DNA from: a virus
Strand: one strand, 5' to 3'
IMG/VR virus record: IMGVR_UViG_3300049846_002441
Coordinates: 1-50,202 of that record
DNA: 50,202 nt
Shown here: positions 3,491 to 50,202 of the stretch, one piece after another
How the letters are laid out: each line of letters starts with the position of its first letter
How positions within the stretch are numbered: the first letter of the stretch is position 1
Notes under the pieces: model-generated
What the model saw: only the letters and a program-made list of their open reading frames with translations
The model's database searches: none
What the model was told of the DNA's origin: nothing
Translations under genes and position numbers: made by a program

Positions 3491-3637
3491 TCAGCCGAAT
3501 AGGACTTGGCGGGGCCGCGGCCGCTCTCTCTGAGGCTCGCAAGGCGCCGGGCGCCGCTCAAACACCGCCATGATGGCGAGGAGCAAAATCACCGTAAGAA
3601 GAGTCCCCATAACCGCGTAAACCCTGTCCCTGTTCAT
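3491..3637 (-). CDS. Single-span membrane micro-protein, 48 aa
   Basis: ATG 3637 overlaps the stop of the Sak4-like ATPase gene (ATGA), so translation is probably coupled. Residues 8-26 (AVMGTLLTVILLLAIMAVF) are a clear transmembrane helix, followed by a Pro/Arg-rich tail (ERRPAPCEPQRERPRPR), which suggests an N-out or short-tail topology with the basic end in the cytoplasm. Function is unknown. Confidence 0.55.
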   Translation of the reverse strand: MNRDRVYAVMGTLLTVILLLAIMAVFERRPAPCEPQRERPRPRQVLFG

Positions 3638-4860
3638 GGCCGCGAAAGCTCCTTCAGCCGTTTCGTTACCGCCTTCTGAACGGCGGCGTATGCTAGGCCG
3701 TGGCCCTCGTTCATCACAAAGTCCATGTGCGGCGTGTTGACCTTGAGGAATGCGTCGAGGCTTGTCTGCGATTTCAATCTCTCGATCTGCGAGAGCATCC
3801 CGTTACGCCAGATCTCAACGTCGTCTGTGCGGTGGCCATCACCTTTCGACGAAGTGATGATGATGTAGTTGCCATCGCCGATTAGTCTGTCGGCGCCGGC
3901 AAGGCGTTCCGTGTCCGCTTTTTTGTCCGGTTGCTGCGGGGCGGCTTCTTGTTTGTTTTCAGACAGTTGCGGATCCTGAGTCATAGGATCTGCATTTTTT
4001 TTGTCCGATTTTGCGTCCGCTTTGACCATTTTGCCGGGTCCGGCAATACGGCCGCCGCTGGCCCAGCGCGCGATCGCGCGACCAGCGTCTTCGTCGACGC
4101 ACCTATTGCCCTCGAACGCGGGCTTATGCTGCCCCTCGATTTTCAGGAATGACGGGATGCCAGGCTTCTCGGTGGTGAGCAGCATCGAGAGCGTCATCTC
4201 AAACATAAACTGCTTCTCGCAGATCGGCTGTATCCCCATATCGACAATGACGGTCTTCTCGTATGTTTTGCCGTTTCGCCCCTCTTCTTTCACCTTGTCG
4301 AACTTGATCTTTGGCTCGGCGCGAAGGCAGAAGATGATGTGCATTTGCCGCTGCAACAGGCGCACCATCATTTTCTTGTGCCGCCGTTTTGGGTCTTTCC
4401 ATGAGAGCGCTGTTAGGCGTTCGGCCTTCTTTGCGTCGAACACGCCGTTCTCGTCAGTGCACATGCGCGCGAGAGCTTCTTGCGCCATATCATCGATGCC
4501 ACCTTCACCAGCGTATTCGTGGCTCATCGAGTCGACGATAAGGGCGCCGTACCCTGCCGCCTCTGCCTGCAAGATCGTTTTGAGGTATTGCTCCGGTGTG
4601 AACGGTGCAGTGATCTCGAAGTGGTCGAAGTCGAACGTTTCTTTGAAGTCGGGCTCGTCACCTATCGGCGGCGCGTAGTGAAGGCCGCGACCGTTCTCGG
4701 TGTCGCCGAATGCAATACGCTTGCCTGTGCCGTCGAGCAGCCCGGTGGCAAAACGCAGCGCCGATTTGGTCTTGCCGCCGCCGGTGGTGCCGGCGATCGC
4801 AACCAGAACATACTCGTTCACGCGCACCGCCTTCTTGAAGGGATTTTCGTCTGCGTTCAT
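3634..4860 (-). CDS. AAA / RecA-fold ATPase, Sak4-like recombination protein
   Basis: A 408-aa ATPase. The Walker A motif is AGTTGGGKTKSA (about 23-34), Walker B is ALIVDSMSH (106-114), and a basic region follows (DPKRRHKKMMVRLLQRQMHIIFCLR). This layout fits phage RecA-like Sak4 proteins, which anneal or pair single strands during recombination and replication. Residues about 285-325 form a Lys/Asp/Gln-rich linker, and a C-terminal helical module follows. Its partners in this genome are probably the PD-(D/E)XK exonuclease (7772-8743) and the RuvC-like resolvase (9517-10086). ATG 4860 overlaps the stop of the upstream 56-aa gene. The ATPase call is firm; the Sak4 assignment is by motif order only. 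Confidence 0.85.
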   Translation of the reverse strand: MNADENPFKKAVRVNEYVLVAIAGTTGGGKTKSALRFATGLLDGTGKRIAFGDTENGRGLHYAPPIGDEPDFKETFDFDHFEITAPFTPEQYLKTILQAEAAGYGALIVDSMSHEYAGEGGIDDMAQEALARMCTDENGVFDAKKAERLTALSWKDPKRRHKKMMVRLLQRQMHIIFCLRAEPKIKFDKVKEEGRNGKTYEKTVIVDMGIQPICEKQFMFEMTLSMLLTTEKPGIPSFLKIEGQHKPAFEGNRCVDEDAGRAIARWASGGRIAGPGKMVKADAKSDKKNADPMTQDPQLSENKQEAAPQQPDKKADTERLAGADRLIGDGNYIIITSSKGDGHRTDDVEIWRNGMLSQIERLKSQTSLDAFLKVNTPHMDFVMNEGHGLAYAAVQKAVTKRLKELSRP

Positions 4861-5027
4861 ACTTGCACCCTTATGCGTCGATCGTCATCTCGAGTTTCTG
4901 CTTGCTGCAAGCCCAACTCAACAGCCTCGAGCAGGGCGTCGTGAAGCTCGCCCTCTGTCAGATCTTCAATGCGCTTTCCGCGCCAGTATATCTGGATGTC
5001 GGTTAGGATTTTGGCTTGCTTGGTCAT
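4857..5027 (-). CDS. Hypothetical protein, 56 aa, with duplicated N-terminus
   Basis: The gene starts at ATG 5027 overlapping the previous stop (CCATGA) and ends in a TGA overlapping the ATPase start. The first ten residues (MTKQAKILTD) are identical at DNA level to the starts of the genes at 5743-5871 and 5262-5585, while the remainder is unrelated. The rest is acidic and helical (EDLTEGELHDALLEAVELG). Function is unknown; the shared start appears to be a mobile 5' module. Confidence 0.65.
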   Translation of the reverse strand: MTKQAKILTDIQIYWRGKRIEDLTEGELHDALLEAVELGLQQAETRDDDRRIRVQV

Positions 5028-5029
5028 GG
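4998..5029 (-). repeat. Gene-start repeat MTKQAKILTD, copy 1
   Basis: A 32-bp segment, identical to 5842-5873 and nearly identical to 5556-5584, covering the start codon and first ten codons of the 56-aa gene. Confidence 0.95.
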
Positions 5030-5269
5030 CTTGGCCTTGATGGATCGAACGGCGGCACTTGATCCGTTTTCGAGCCCCTGCCAGTAAACAGCCACGAACG
5101 CATCTCTAAGACCTTCTAGCCCGTGCCCTAGGTTATAGTGTACCGTTGGACCGATGATGTCCCAAAGATGATCGCGTGTGTCTTCGTCGAGTTCTAGCTT
5201 GGTGAAGTCACGGCGCGGCACGACCGGGACCGGCGGGAGCAACATTATCGGGATGCGCCGTTCACTCAT
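5024..5269 (-). CDS. Hypothetical protein, 81 aa
   Basis: ATG 5269 lies 8 bp inside the end of the upstream gene. The product has a Pro-rich start (IMLLPPVPVVPRR), then an acidic helical domain with a conserved-looking HLWDIIGPTVHYNLGHGLEG stretch, and ends IKAKP. The terminal AAG-CC-ATGA is the junction style repeated through this operon. No family recognised. Confidence 0.7.
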   Translation of the reverse strand: MSERRIPIMLLPPVPVVPRRDFTKLELDEDTRDHLWDIIGPTVHYNLGHGLEGLRDAFVAVYWQGLENGSSAAVRSIKAKP

Positions 5270-5585
5270 CGCCGAGCACCTTGGTCGCGTTTTGAATCAC
5301 GACTTGCGGGTGCAGCGTGCCGTTGCGCGCCTGTGTGCGAAGGTAGGAAAGCGCCCCGCGCGCTGCCTCTAGCTCCGCGTCAAGGACTGCGATGTGCTCA
5401 ATAAATTCATCGCGATGGTCGGCAGCCTGTGCCCATGCCTCACCCACATCGCCGGGCGGGTCTTCAATCTCTTCAAAAATCTCTGACATCCTTTCAGCGC
5501 TTACCCTCTTGGCATCACAAGTCATAAAATCACCTCTCGAATCACTTTTGCGCGCGTCAGTTAGGATTTTGGCTTGCTTGGTCAC
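5262..5585 (-). CDS. Hypothetical protein, 107 aa, built on two repeated start modules
   Basis: GTG 5585 overlaps the preceding TGA (GTGA), giving MTKQAKILTD, then a second repeated module (KSDSRGDFMT) whose ATG at 5523 carries its own ribosome site (GAGAGGTGATTTT). Either start could be used; the inner one would give an 86-aa protein. The body is acidic and helical, with a coiled-coil-like run (HIAVLDAELEAARGALSYL), ending in VVIQNATKVLGDE. Function is unknown. The gene looks assembled from two reused 5' pieces. Confidence 0.65.
   Translation of the reverse strand: MTKQAKILTDARKSDSRGDFMTCDAKRVSAERMSEIFEEIEDPPGDVGEAWAQAADHRDEFIEHIAVLDAELEAARGALSYLRTQARNGTLHPQVVIQNATKVLGDE
5520..5548 (-). repeat. 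Ribosome-site/start repeat, copy 1
   Basis: A 29-bp segment identical to 6291-6319. Read leftward it holds GAGAGGTGATTTT followed by ATGAC, a ready-made ribosome site and start codon. Confidence 0.95.
5556..5584 (-). repeat. Gene-start repeat MTKQAKILTD, copy 2
   Basis: A 29-bp match to 4998-5029 and 5842-5873 with one internal mismatch; here the start codon is GTG. Confidence 0.95.
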
Positions 5586-5746
5586 TTGAGCCACCTACGC
5601 GGCCAAAGCGGGAGCATCCACTTGGTATGCTTTTGCGCACTGACATGGCTCAGGTAAACTAGGCCAATCACTCGCGTCATTATGAACACGACCGACCAAC
5701 TGCGACCAAAGTGAATTTCAATCCCGCCTGCGACTTTGCTAATCAT
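5582..5746 (-). CDS. Hypothetical basic membrane-type peptide, 54 aa
   Basis: ATG 5746 overlaps the previous stop (ATGA) and the TGA overlaps the next start (GTGA), so it sits in an unbroken coupled series. The middle is hydrophobic (WSVVFIMTRVIGLVYLS) and could be a membrane helix. The C-terminus is Trp/Arg-rich (MLPLWPRRWLK). No family recognised. Confidence 0.55.
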   Translation of the reverse strand: MISKVAGGIEIHFGRSWSVVFIMTRVIGLVYLSHVSAQKHTKWMLPLWPRRWLK

Positions 5747-5871
5747 GCTCGCACAACCCTTCCTTCAGTGATGAACCAGTGAAACCCGCACGACTGACAA
5801 CTGATGGACGGCGAACCTCGCTCAATCAACCATGCGGTCGCGTCGGTTAGGATTTTGGCTTGCTTGGTCAT
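5743..5871 (-). CDS. Hypothetical micro-protein, 42 aa, CxxC
   Basis: Starts with the repeated MTKQAKILTD module at ATG 5871 (CCATGA overlap with the upstream stop). The remainder contains a CQSC pair followed by GFHWF, resembling half of a zinc ribbon, and ends TEGRVVRA. Function is unknown. Confidence 0.55.
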   Translation of the reverse strand: MTKQAKILTDATAWLIERGSPSISCQSCGFHWFITEGRVVRA

Positions 5872-5873
5872 GG
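5842..5873 (-). repeat. Gene-start repeat MTKQAKILTD, copy 3
   Basis: A 32-bp segment identical to 4998-5029. Confidence 0.95.
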
Positions 5874-6296
5874 GGTGCCGCCAAAAAACGGGATCATCTT
5901 GTTTTCCTGATAGCTCGATGCGATGCGTGGCCGCACGTGCTGCGCCACAGTCTGCCCATCCGGCATGACGATGTTCGCCAAAAACTCATCCTCGAACGTG
6001 GCTATCCCGGACGCAACCGCTTCCAGTTTTGCCTTGATGCACATGGCCAGCGCGCGCCACAGGCGCCGCTCTTCCTGAGCGAACTTCTCAGGCGTAAATT
6101 TACCGGCGTTCGGCATTTGGAGGCGGAACATCACGCGCCGACCCTTGGCCTCGAAAGCAAGAATCGCCTCCGTCGCGTTCTGCCCGCTCATGAACGACTT
6201 GGCGCCGTACTTCGTTAGCAGGCGCTCAATTTCAGAGCGTGTCTGGCCGACCGGGACGCGCGTGCTCTCAGCGAAGCGGCGGCTTGGTCCAGTCAT
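5868..6296 (-). CDS. Conserved phage hypothetical protein, 142 aa
   Basis: ATG 6296 is preferred over upstream in-frame starts because the repeated GAGAGGTGATTTT ribosome module lies directly before it. The protein follows a layout I recognise from many phage genomes: an opening SRRFAESTRVPVGQTRSEIE, a basic beta stretch (GRRVMFRLQMP), then WRALAMCIKAKLEAV, GIATFEDEFLANIV and a tail ending near SSYQENKMIPFF. The family has no known function. Its end (GGTP) overlaps the next ATG. Confidence 0.85.
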   Translation of the reverse strand: MTGPSRRFAESTRVPVGQTRSEIERLLTKYGAKSFMSGQNATEAILAFEAKGRRVMFRLQMPNAGKFTPEKFAQEERRLWRALAMCIKAKLEAVASGIATFEDEFLANIVMPDGQTVAQHVRPRIASSYQENKMIPFFGGTP

Positions 6297-6319
6297 AAAA
6301 TCACCTCTCGAATCACTTT
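6291..6319 (-). repeat. Ribosome-site/start repeat, copy 2
   Basis: A 29-bp segment identical to 5520-5548, here supplying the ribosome site and ATG of the 142-aa gene. Confidence 0.95.
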
Positions 6320-6390
6320 CGCTACCGCCAGGAATCGTACCACGCAAAATCCGGCTCAATTCTGCCGCCAGTCGCAATCTTGTAGTTTTG

Positions 6391-6696
6391 CTACGGACTG
6401 AGCGCCGGGTTTTCCATCGCGGCGGGTCTGATCGCCATACAGACGAAACCGCGCTCGATGCCGAACGCTGGCCCGGCGATCAAATACGTCACGTCCACAA
6501 GCATGTGACGCCCCGTGTACGCCTCCCGCTTTGGCAGCCACTCTCGCAGGTGCAGGATATCGCCGACGCGGAACGGCTGTTCGCCGTCGTCCTTGCGGAC
6601 CTCGAAGGTTTTCTCGCCGCGCTCGATCGCTTCGTAGAATTCGGGCCATATTTTGAGCCTGCGTACGGCCCTGTGTTGGAGTTCGTCTTTGCTCAT
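6391..6696 (-). CDS. DUF3850 / ASCH-PUA-fold domain protein, 101 aa
   Basis: ATG 6696 overlaps the upstream stop (CCATGA). The core LKIWPEFYEAIERGEKTFEV, RKDDGEQPFRVGDILHLREW and VTYLI corresponds to the DUF3850 family, a small ASCH/PUA-like beta-barrel thought to bind RNA or modified nucleotides. Length is typical for a single domain. A 94-bp gap follows before the 142-aa gene, one of the few spaces in this operon and a possible internal promoter position. Confidence 0.88.
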   Translation of the reverse strand: MSKDELQHRAVRRLKIWPEFYEAIERGEKTFEVRKDDGEQPFRVGDILHLREWLPKREAYTGRHMLVDVTYLIAGPAFGIERGFVCMAIRPAAMENPALSP

Positions 6697-7094
6697 GGCC
6701 TGGCCTTGAGTGCTGCAATTTTTTCCATCAGATTTCCCCATTGCCGCTCTTGCTCTTTCACGTCGCGCTTGATCGGCGCGAGTGCGGCCTTGTGCTTTTC
6801 GATGCGAATCTCAAGGATTTTTGTGCAATTTGGCGCAAAGTCCGCTGGCAGGGTTGGCGCAAGGCGCGCCCACTCATCTAACATCCATGAGAAATCCAAC
6901 TCCCGCGCCTTCCCCTCGGCGGCAACCAAATCCTTCACGCGCTCCGCATCGGTGGCTAGTGATCGGTCTAGGTCGTGACGCAACCGCTCGACTTCGGCGA
7001 ACACAATGGCGATAGCCATCGTCGGTGCCGGGGGCTGCGGGCCGCTCCAATTCACCCACTCCCGCACCCGCTCCATCGCTTCCTCTATCGTCAC
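6693..7094 (-). CDS. Hypothetical coiled-coil protein, 133 aa
   Basis: GTG 7094 overlaps the previous TGA. The sequence is strongly helical and charged: IEEAMERVREWVNWSG, then VERLRHDLDRSLATDAERV and IKRDVKEQERQWGNLMEKI, suggesting two coiled-coil segments separated by a Pro-containing turn near residue 90. It ends KARP with AGGCCATGA feeding the next gene. No family recognised. Confidence 0.75.
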   Translation of the reverse strand: MTIEEAMERVREWVNWSGPQPPAPTMAIAIVFAEVERLRHDLDRSLATDAERVKDLVAAEGKARELDFSWMLDEWARLAPTLPADFAPNCTKILEIRIEKHKAALAPIKRDVKEQERQWGNLMEKIAALKARP

Positions 7095-7360
7095 GGCTTC
7101 ACTTCCGCGTTAATAGATGCCGCAATAGCGCGGCGAAGTTGGTCACTTGGTATTTTGGCAAAACCGATAACCTCTATCGCAGCGACAAGCATTTCGTCGC
7201 TCACGTCCTCCGGCCGTATGGCGGCAAGGCCGGCGCGGGCCTGCGGTCGCCAGTCGCGCCACGCCGGCCAATCACCCATCTGCGATTTGGCGTCCGCCGA
7301 TTCTTCCGGGCCAACGCTTTCGCAAATCGCCCGCGCCATTCTCTCAACAATGCCGGTCAT
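7091..7360 (-). CDS. Conserved phage hypothetical protein, 89 aa
   Basis: ATG 7360 overlaps the upstream stop. The opening MTGIVERMARAICES is a pattern found at the start of many small phage proteins, and the middle (PQARAGLAAI, then VSDEMLVAAIEV) is typical of the same unnamed family. Function is unknown. It ends NAEVKP followed by the GTGA start of the next gene. Confidence 0.75.
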   Translation of the reverse strand: MTGIVERMARAICESVGPEESADAKSQMGDWPAWRDWRPQARAGLAAIRPEDVSDEMLVAAIEVIGFAKIPSDQLRRAIAASINAEVKP

Positions 7361-7545
7361 GGCTTCTCCTGTGTGAGAACGTTGACAAGCGTTTCGGCTT
7401 CGGTAAATCGCATCGGGTTTTCGCAGTACGCAAGCGCGTCCTTGGGCTTCAGTCCAGTCGCTTGGCAAAGCCTACACCTGCCCACGAATGGCTGTCCCTT
7501 TGGCGATGTGCGCTCAATGGCGTGGAGTTGCTGCGTCGTGGTCAT
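7357..7545 (-). CDS. Small zinc-finger-like protein, 62 aa
   Basis: ATG 7545 overlaps the stop of the 65-aa gene inside a 24-bp repeat. Residues C24, C27 and C41 (CRLC ... AYC) look like part of a zinc-binding knuckle. The C-terminus is TQEKP, whose codons (CAGGAGAAGCC) also provide the ribosome site of the next gene. A longer reading of this frame to 7770 overlaps the 65-aa gene and is rejected. Confidence 0.65.
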   Translation of the reverse strand: MTTTQQLHAIERTSPKGQPFVGRCRLCQATGLKPKDALAYCENPMRFTEAETLVNVLTQEKP

Positions 7546-7739
7546 GGCTTCTCCTGTGGTTCGGCTGCGAATGTCGTTGACGCGAAAAACCGAGCGCCAC
7601 GAAACCGGCCGTATTCGAGATGGAAAAGCTCGGTCAAGTACAGTGTCCCGCCATCGACGCGAATTGCCGTGATCAACATCGATTTCATGTTGACGATTGT
7701 CTTCTCGACTAACTTGTTCTCGTCCTTCTTCTTGCTCAC
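7542..7739 (-). CDS. Hypothetical protein, 65 aa
   Basis: GTG 7739 follows an AGGAG site carried by the second copy of a 24-bp repeat (7740-7763). The product is basic at its start (MSKKKDENKLVEKTIV) and appears to have a beta-rich middle. It ends FAAEPQEKP, encoded by the first copy of the same repeat (7546-7569). No family recognised. Confidence 0.65.
   Translation of the reverse strand: MSKKKDENKLVEKTIVNMKSMLITAIRVDGGTLYLTELFHLEYGRFRGARFFASTTFAAEPQEKP
7546..7569 (-). repeat. Stop/ribosome-site junction repeat, copy 1
   Basis: 24 bp identical to 7740-7763. It encodes the C-terminus AAEPQEK of the 65-aa gene and the AGGAG site for the next one. Confidence 0.95.
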
Positions 7740-7763
7740 GGCTTCTCCTGTGGTTCGGCTGCG
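7740..7763 (-). repeat. Stop/ribosome-site junction repeat, copy 2 (orphan C-terminus)
   Basis: 24 bp identical to 7546-7569. It lies in the gap after the exonuclease stop. Its frame still reads AAEPQEKP-stop, but no upstream gene is attached, so it looks like the left-over end of a lost gene that is kept as a ribosome site. Confidence 0.9.
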
Positions 7764-7771
7764 TGGCCATG

Positions 7772-8743
7772 TCAGTAAGCCTTCAAAGTCTCAGGGTTGT
7801 TGCCGACGCCGAAGATGCGCCGCGCGTAATCTTCACCAACACGCCCCGGTGAGCCGAAGTCGCCGCGATCCTTCCGCTCCTCCAGTGCCATCTCAATGCC
7901 GCGCGGCAGATCGATCTCGGCGCCGCGCTCGTACGCCGGCCAGTTGTCGGCGGTCAGACACGCGAAGAAATCGCGGATCATCGCGCGCCAAACAATCAAA
8001 CCCCAATCGAGCGTTATGACCGACGGTGTGACGATGTTCACAAGATGTGGTGGTGCGTTTTCTTGGCAGATCCACGCGAAGTCGTGCGGCGGCGCACCCT
8101 CAACGCGCGTGATGATATCGAGTTGCGACGCGGCTTGAATGAACCACCCGCCGTCGTGCACCTTCATCGCGATCGAGCGCGGGTGTACAGATCCGCTCGT
8201 GGTTTTGTAGTCGCGCACGCACACTTTGTCGTCGATCCTGATGCGCACGTCCGGCCGCGATTTCAACCAAATGCCCGTGTCCTCGTCTTTCACGAAATAC
8301 GAGAGCTCGTTTTGACCTTCTGTTGTCAGCCGGTGGCACTCATCATCTGCCCAAAGGGCGTCGCGCATCACCAGAACGCGCGCCATTTGATCCGGTGTGA
8401 GACAAACGGCGCCGGACTCCCTCGCCTCATTCCTAAGATATCTTTTGCGAGCGGCAGGCGTATTCTTGTCGACCGCAACAACGAGGCCTTGCCAGTTCTC
8501 CTCAAGAGCCGCCGCATGTGCGGCGGTGCCGAGATCGAAGCGCGTTACGCTATCGGAGGGGCGATCCGGGTTCAGGTACGAGTCGAACCACATCACGCGC
8601 GGGCACTCTTGGTAAAGCGCGATCGCCATCGAGGCGCTGAACGAAGGCCCATCAGCGCAATCGGCGTGATACCAGTCGTTCGGCATCTCGTAGACGCCGG
8701 GTTCGGTGATTTTCTCGCCGTAGCGGATTTTGGTGATTTTCAT
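7772..8743 (-). CDS. PD-(D/E)XK exonuclease, exodeoxyribonuclease VIII-like
   Basis: 323 aa. The start ATG 8743 is chosen from composition and the MKITKIRYGE opening. The frame is open far upstream but overlaps the divergent control region. Catalytic features are His76 (GTAAHAAAL), Glu146 (NELS), Asp165 in KSRPDV, the Asp178-x-Lys180 pair in VRDYKTT and Gln207 in IQAASQLDI, the layout of RecE/Exo VIII C-terminal and Cas4-like nucleases. It should resect double-stranded ends to give single strands for the Sak4-like ATPase. As first gene of the leftward operon it lies next to the control region. A TGCAACGAGACG leader precedes its start. Confidence 0.9.
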   Translation of the reverse strand: MKITKIRYGEKITEPGVYEMPNDWYHADCADGPSFSASMAIALYQECPRVMWFDSYLNPDRPSDSVTRFDLGTAAHAAALEENWQGLVVAVDKNTPAARKRYLRNEARESGAVCLTPDQMARVLVMRDALWADDECHRLTTEGQNELSYFVKDEDTGIWLKSRPDVRIRIDDKVCVRDYKTTSGSVHPRSIAMKVHDGGWFIQAASQLDIITRVEGAPPHDFAWICQENAPPHLVNIVTPSVITLDWGLIVWRAMIRDFFACLTADNWPAYERGAEIDLPRGIEMALEERKDRGDFGSPGRVGEDYARRIFGVGNNPETLKAY

Positions 8744-49824: not shown

Positions 49825-50038
49825 CCCCAAGGCTGCCGAGCACCGCGGTAAGCACGACGTTTAGGGCCTCGGCCTCTCGTGCGGACAGGCGCCAGGCGTG
49901 ACGGTCGAACATCTCCCGAACGACGTCTTTTGCTTCATCAAATTCCATGTTTCCTCTCCATGTTGCGAGTCGAGTTCTCCGCCTGGTGTCGCCATCCGTC
50001 GCCTCACTCAGCCGCTTCTCAAGGTCTTCCAGTGTCAT
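49760..50038 (-). CDS. Hypothetical protein, 92 aa
   Basis: ATG 50038 overlaps the stop of the contig-spanning gene (ATGA). An inner ATG at 49948 has its own GGAGAGG site and would give 62 aa. The helical core (FDEAKDVVREMFDRHAWRLS, AREAEALNVVLTAVLGSLG) looks real. The last 21 codons run antisense to the Rz1 end. No family recognised. Last gene of the leftward operon. Confidence 0.65.
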   Translation of the reverse strand: MTLEDLEKRLSEATDGDTRRRTRLATWRGNMEFDEAKDVVREMFDRHAWRLSAREAEALNVVLTAVLGSLGVRSPKTTSCGSAPTQPGCSES

Positions 50039-50202
50039 TGGCTGGCCTCACGGGCTTTGCGGAGGTTGGCGAGGGCGGACTTTGCATCTTCTGTCGCCTT
50101 AACGGTCATAGGCGACCACCATCCGCCGCCGATTTCATCCTCTTGGTTGTTCTTCGTGTCGTGGGCTGCTCGCTTTATCAATTCATCAAGTGCAGCCTCA
50201 AC
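50035..50202 (-). CDS. Hypothetical protein, 3' part of the gene cut by the contig ends
   Basis: Same gene as at 1-292: codons 56-110 and the stop, ending LANLRKAREASQ. Bases 50076-50202 repeat the left end. The TGA at 50035-50037 overlaps the start of the 92-aa gene. Confidence 0.75.
   Translation of the reverse strand, partial: VEAALDELIKRAAHDTKNNQEDEIGGGWWSPMTVKATEDAKSALANLRKAREASQ
50076..50202. repeat. Terminal direct repeat, right copy
   Basis: Identical to bases 1-127, proving circularity of the assembled molecule. Confidence 0.97.

Follow-up and report, generated by a model that had tools for sequence, protein, structure and literature searches.

The stretch of DNA analysed here, the window, comprises all 50,202 nucleotides (positions 1-50,202) of the virus contig IMGVR_UViG_3300049846_002441. 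Its two ends carry an exact terminal repeat of 127 bp (1-127 and 50076-50202), so that the record is probably circular, and it probably represents a complete circular or circularly permuted genome. On the minus strand, genes for a RecE-like exonuclease and a Sak4-like ATPase border a stretch of small genes that carries three families of short repeats, termed here block A, module B and module C. Each family has two or three copies, all within one operon, and every exact internal direct repeat of at least 24 bp in the 50 kb belongs to one of them. The features are listed below in operon order.

7772..8740, minus strand: RecE-like exonuclease VIII (phrog_412, E=2e-53), a candidate end-resection partner
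7734..7763, minus strand: module C copy 3, CGCAGCCGAACCACAGGAGAAGCCGTGAGC; repeat at 7740-7763, at the start of the 65-aa gene
7540..7569, minus strand: module C copy 2, CGCAGCCGAACCACAGGAGAAGCCATGACC; repeat at 7540-7563, spanning the end of the 65-aa gene and the start of the 62-aa gene
7355..7373, minus strand: module C copy 1, CACAGGAGAAGCCATGACC; end of the 62-aa gene (QEKP and stop) and start of the next gene (ORF 7091-7361)
6291..6391, minus strand: module B copy 2 with its leader; repeat at 6291-6319, starting the phrog_17260 gene at ATG 6296
5868..6296, minus strand: phrog_17260 gene, 142 aa, with module B at its 5′ end and block A at its 3′ end
5842..5873, minus strand: block A copy 3, starting the 42-aa ORF; ATGA overlap with the stop of the phrog_17260 gene
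5743..5871, minus strand: 42-aa ORF with a block A start; its end weakly matches the C-terminal end of DUF6527
5556..5584, minus strand: block A copy 2, with a GTG start and one C->T change; GTGA overlap with the stop of the 54-aa ORF; module B copy 1 comes next, in the same frame
5520..5560, minus strand: module B copy 1, GTGATTCGAGAGGTGATTTTATGACT; repeat at 5520-5548, Shine-Dalgarno sequence and start of the 87-aa gene
5262..5525, minus strand: 87-aa ORF from ATG 5525, inside the 107-aa gene of an earlier reading
5020..5040, minus strand: weaker stop/start repeat, TCAAGGCCAAGCCATGACCAA, a 90% match to 6689-6709; ...KA/RP and stop, then ATGA
4998..5029, minus strand: block A copy 1, CCATGACCAAGCAAGCCAAAATCCTAACCGAC, starting the 56-aa ORF; ATGA overlap with the stop of the 81-aa ORF
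4857..5027, minus strand: 56-aa ORF with a block A start, without known relatives
3634..4860, minus strand: Sak4-like AAA ATPase (phrog_1366, E=1e-58; PF13479 barely over the cut-off), a candidate phage recombinase

From module B copy 2 onwards the order is module B, phrog_17260 gene, block A, 42-aa ORF, 54-aa ORF, block A joined to module B, 87-aa ORF, 81-aa ORF, block A, 56-aa ORF and Sak4-like gene. Upstream of module B, positions 6391-6696 encode a DUF3850/ASCH-like protein (phrog_986, RNA-binding). A sigma-70 scan of the operon found no promoter, and none is claimed for the leader of module B. Nothing in the phage collection matched the operon at the DNA level.

Read on the minus strand, block A is CC-ATGACCAAGCAAGCCAAAATCCTAACCGAC and codes for MTKQAKILTD. 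It extends from 2-4 bp before the start codon to ten codons inside the gene, and forms the first ten codons of the 56-aa ORF, the 42-aa ORF and, when translation is read from GTG 5585, the 107-aa ORF. Copies 1 and 3 are identical over 32 bp; copy 2 shares an exact core of 25 bp, or 29 bp with one change. That the block is a genuine repeat had been claimed from an inspection of the sequence alone, and its three minus-strand copies bear this out, since dinucleotide-preserving shuffles of the window give an expectation of 0 matches at up to three mismatches. The same sequence-only reading was also right in placing the start codon and the overlap with the upstream stop inside the block (ATGA, ATGA and GTGA). 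By reading the sequence, an AAGG can be located about 8 nt 5′ of the ATG in copy 1. The starts at copies 1 and 3 are the least folded among 36 starts examined (0.0 kcal/mol over +1 to +37, against -1.1 to -12.0 for the others). The 56-aa ORF has no relatives in IMG/VR, and the tails of the 42- and 56-aa ORFs have no clear relatives in the phage collection. The match of the 42-aa tail to DUF6527 is weak (E=0.027; 4 of 500 shuffles score equally high), and the GC pattern of this ORF is not coding-like. As neither ORF has firm relatives and the shorter one lacks a coding-like GC pattern, some of the products started by block A may be remnants rather than working genes.

Module B consists of a Shine-Dalgarno sequence followed by ATGAC, and its copy 1 lies directly behind block A copy 2. 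This arrangement modifies the claim that three neighbouring genes begin with MTKQAKILTD, which probably fails for at least one of the three, the 107-aa gene. Within the 107-aa frame, ATG 5525 lies 60 nt downstream of GTG 5585 and has GAGGTGA 4 nt before it; at the other copy of the module, relatives of the phrog_17260 protein align from about ATG 6296. Because ATG 5525 is the better start and is part of a repeated module, the true product is probably the protein of 87 aa, and block A copy 2 would be either an alternative N-terminal extension or a relic. The joint between the two repeats, CCTAAC-TGACG-CGCGCAAAAGTG, falls at C(T/C)GACG, a motif common to A and B, and the sole internal change in block A copy 2 is the base that module B carries at this motif. 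The joint looks like a short-homology recombinant, with the proviso that it is a single joint for which other histories are possible.

Module C is present in three copies upstream of block A and, in two of them, codes for the last residues of the upstream gene, QEKP and stop. Both B and C had been missed by the sequence-only reading, as had the recombinase origin of block A described below.

Genomes were scanned, at one genome per species (84,980 species), for any codon version of block A. Two places were found, in a Clostridia MAG and in CADEFU010000019.1. The Clostridia match (L026) is a chance short ORF. The only other exact block A in the scan is that of CADEFU010000019.1 (L027/L029/L030/L070, hereafter L029), a contig of an alphaproteobacterial MAG. 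The contig measures 40.6 kb and is circular by a 29-bp terminal overlap; the likeness of a large ORF to a portal protein, judged by eye, suggests a tailed phage. No second carrier of block A was found among 385 class-level or 96 family-level genomes, and none of module B among 96 order-level genomes; a search of IMG/VR with an amino-acid-degenerate block A gave no match. The 18-bp core of block A gave four chance matches, none of them at gene starts.

Gene order in L029 is module B, DHH phosphoesterase (phrog_4771, E=8e-102), exact block A, 76-aa ORF, a variant block A′ and a compact tyrosine recombinase. The portability of the block before unrelated genes, as read from the sequence alone, is supported by this identical copy at the start of another gene. 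Block A is identical over 37/37 bp (window 5839-5875 and L029:359-395), and module B with its leader matches over 82/101 bp (81%; L029:1300-1400, then an N gap). Between B and A lies the phrog_17260 gene in the window and the DHH phosphoesterase gene in L029; block A is followed by the 42- and 56-aa ORFs in the former and by the 76-aa ORF in the latter. Most genes of the two phages are unrelated, and beyond A and B they share a 31-bp N-terminal block, a weak 100-bp DNA match and two diverged protein genes. The 31-bp block, identical at 29/31 bp between window positions 49996-50026 (minus strand) and L029:3638-3668, codes for DLEKRL[S/T]EAT at the starts of two genes that differ otherwise, and has the appearance of a fourth module. 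At the level of sequence, the comparison shows exchange of the gene between B and A in the two phages. Block A is 100% identical between phages whose module B differs by 19%, and this sharper conservation would fit both a recent, separate exchange of A and selection on its sequence. With two carriers of block A only, it is not possible to reconstruct how many events took place or in which direction. The searches made yielded no insertion-free sister genome lacking the cassette.

In L029, A′ is the true N-terminus of the compact tyrosine recombinase, the gene for which is complete across the contig ends. Seven differences over 33 bases separate A from A′. All are silent, an outcome reached by none of 20,000 random sets of seven changes. 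Since all differences are silent, A comes from a functional recombinase coding sequence under protein-level selection: it is a copy of the 5′ end of a tyrosine recombinase gene, ten codons long, that was spliced to genes unrelated to it. The closest fetched relative of the L029 recombinase is a 192-aa protein of locus L036 (44-51% identical), which matches phrog_216 (E=3e-37). MTKQAKILT also begins other recombinases of this family (L036/L037), and Caulobacter phages, Rhodobacter phages and plasmids carry similar proteins with an integrase annotation. The pattern M[TS]KQAKxLT occurs in 17 contigs, with one copy each, and only two of these are compact recombinases; as it is found mostly outside them, the peptide motif alone is not diagnostic. 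The window encodes no relative of the compact recombinase.

Five IMG/VR contigs encode relatives of the 76-aa ORF of L029 (49-62% identity), each with a ...DDGPYLPG... core. None of the five relatives begins with MTKQAKILTD; five other N-termini are found instead. Together, L054-L058 and L029:161-391 form a small phage protein family in which the DDGPYLPG core is constant and the N-terminus is different in each member seen. Because the relatives lack the block A start, block A was put onto an already existing gene, and past swapping at stop/start modules is well supported by these comparisons.

We consider it fairly likely that blocks A, B and C are stop/start modules that have been copied before unrelated small genes and serve as docking sites for gene exchange. 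A module would be a short stretch with a start codon in a good initiation context, which in A and C overlaps the upstream stop. Recombination would have copied such modules ahead of unrelated small genes, and copies common to genes and phages would then act as docking sites at which whole genes could be inserted, lost or exchanged with translation of the operon left intact. Block A itself may have been left behind, or copied, after displacement of the recombinase gene. Termination-reinitiation could serve to translate any open frame joined to a module, as could, in B and C, the module's own Shine-Dalgarno sequence, and coupled translation may be the reason why modules are retained. Homologies of 25-37 bp at several borders could provide substrates for a phage annealing system. 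We infer that the machinery is one of short-homology recombination, probably by the RecE-like exonuclease and Sak4-like annealing protein of the same operon, and that exchange is still running. Phage recombinases of the Rad52/Sak class favour short, diverged sequences (PMC3945230, PMC5928155; for Sak4, PMC5928155). It seems unlikely that the copied recombinase 5′ end is a dedicated gene-acquisition dock, a standing insertion site at which small genes would be captured in frame and expressed at once; if it were, the accessory operon of the phage would be modular and evolvable, with the phage's own exonuclease and annealing protein driving it.

Several other explanations have to be weighed. A, B and C might be kept identical for recognition by an RNA or protein of phage or host at translation initiation, as proposed for Start-Associated Sequences, with recombination being incidental. 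In favour of such a regulatory element, every copy lies on a start codon; B and C have a strong Shine-Dalgarno sequence, block A yields an unfolded, A-rich start, and A is identical in two phages despite the 19% divergence of B. However, block A begins only 2-4 bp ahead of the start codon and covers the first ten codons of the gene, and is thus not a Shine-Dalgarno element, while neighbouring genes of one operon use three unrelated modules, synonymous positions of A are free to vary in the recombinase gene, and the gene behind B differs between the two phages. We regard this regulatory explanation as improbable. A somewhat smaller chance is given to decay, in which the small ORFs would be remnants and the copies of block A scars of deletions that had joined the 5′ end of a since lost recombinase gene to the sequence next in line; there would be no functional products and no role in exchange. 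Three identical copies, in frame and overlapping stops, together with one in L029, would be hard to obtain from independent deletions; moreover, the conserved domain is intact in the fused gene of L029, and B and C repeat the pattern without any recombinase fragment. What decay would explain is the absence of the recombinase from the window, the better start immediately behind block A copy 2, and the 42-aa ORF, with its weak likeness to the C-terminal end of DUF6527 only and its GC pattern.

Integron gene-cassette arrays consist of genes between repeated sites beside a tyrosine recombinase gene. L029 resembles them in that a single gene separates A from A′, the start of its tyrosine recombinase gene, and the window has cassettes between direct copies of A, spaced at 286 and 558 bp. 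The compact tyrosine recombinase might on these grounds be thought to insert cassettes at its own 5′ end, as an integron-like dock, duplicating A each time. This is very improbable: with 7 of 33 bases different, A and A′ of L029 do not make up a conserved core pair, nothing is common to the 3′ ends of the cassettes, and, unlike in integrons, there is no attC-like structure, there are no matching arms and no such recombinase is encoded in the window. Inverted arms are lacking at block A copy 1 and in L029; copy 2 has only GC palindromes, and copy 3 has one 7-bp pair. Ordinary gene duplication with later C-terminal divergence has a precedent in phage paralogues with a common start (the MTKLEEL family of L036/L037), yet in block A identity is complete, silent sites included, over about 30 bp, after which nothing aligns. 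Duplication within a single protein family, which the sequence-only reading had named as the alternative, is contradicted by the relatives of the 76-aa ORF in five viral contigs, which have different N-termini and lack that of block A; plain duplication is rejected on account of these N-termini, and duplication followed by divergence is the least probable of the explanations considered.

Exchange at copied stop/start modules, which remains our preferred reading, has parallels in other phages. Homologous recombination at conserved boundary sequences has been proposed as a source of junction mosaicism (Susskind & Botstein 1978; Clark et al. 2001, HK620; cited in PMC3233612, PMC3029335). The present modules resemble these in being short sequences at gene boundaries common to phages (37/37 bp for A and 82/101 bp for B with L029), beyond which the genes differ between the two phages; unlike the boundary sequences as summarised in those sources, several are repeated in one genome in front of unrelated genes, and one consists of the first ten codons of a recombinase gene. 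In Cluster O mycobacteriophages, Corndog gene 14 and YungJamal gene 60 are single genes lying between short direct repeats at stop/start junctions (PMC4351075). The repeats, 17 bp long for Corndog 14, are present once in relatives without the gene, and YungJamal has a degenerate repeat copy with mostly synonymous changes (PMC4351075). The modules of the window are likewise direct repeats at stop/start junctions around genes, but the Cluster O cases are single events within one cluster with known empty sites, whereas here multi-copy modules are spread across mostly unrelated phages, with no known empty site. Start-Associated Sequences (SAS/ESAS) occur in Cluster K mycobacteriophages and Cluster EF Microbacterium phages, SAS being one 13-bp motif upstream of starts with 10-19 copies per genome (PMC3203893, PMC7302621). 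Like SAS, the present repeats are tied to the starts of different gene families in one phage, with Shine-Dalgarno sequences in B and C. In contrast to SAS, however, block A does not occupy the Shine-Dalgarno position, there are three modules of two or three copies each, A enters the coding sequence, C enters the end of the upstream gene, and the inverted-repeat extension is absent.

The novel features are the presence of several module families, each in multiple copies, within one operon, their reach into coding sequence, the recombinase source and the sharing across otherwise mostly unrelated phages. It has long been asked whether border mosaicism arises by recombination at boundary sequences or by joining at random, with selection as the filter (PMC3233612, PMC3029335), and multi-copy shared boundaries, with different genes between them and one traceable source, make this question testable on a small operon. 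Annotators should note that proteins with an identical N-terminus are not necessarily homologous, and that starts are easily mis-called in such operons (107 versus 87 aa).

Repeats of 18-28 bp at the starts of apparently unrelated genes are also present in other viral loci from IMG/VR (L013, L005, L034/L035/L047 and L031), and likewise in L029, which suggests that repeated start modules are not peculiar to the phage of the window. In a crude automatic survey, 6 start-registered pairs were counted where 0.16 would be expected; the figure is indicative only, as the gene caller misses small genes and 2 of the 6 are true paralogues in L036. Locus L013, a viral contig carrying phrog_17260, has four copies of TCCGGGGGAGCAGAGCGATGAGTGAG, whole or in part, at adjacent genes (L013:227-1105); its longer copies code for an upstream ...QSDE and stop and for MSE of the next gene. 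In a further locus, a start coding for DPRCAR is common to two genes over 20 bp, after which they diverge (L009:6959 and 7487).
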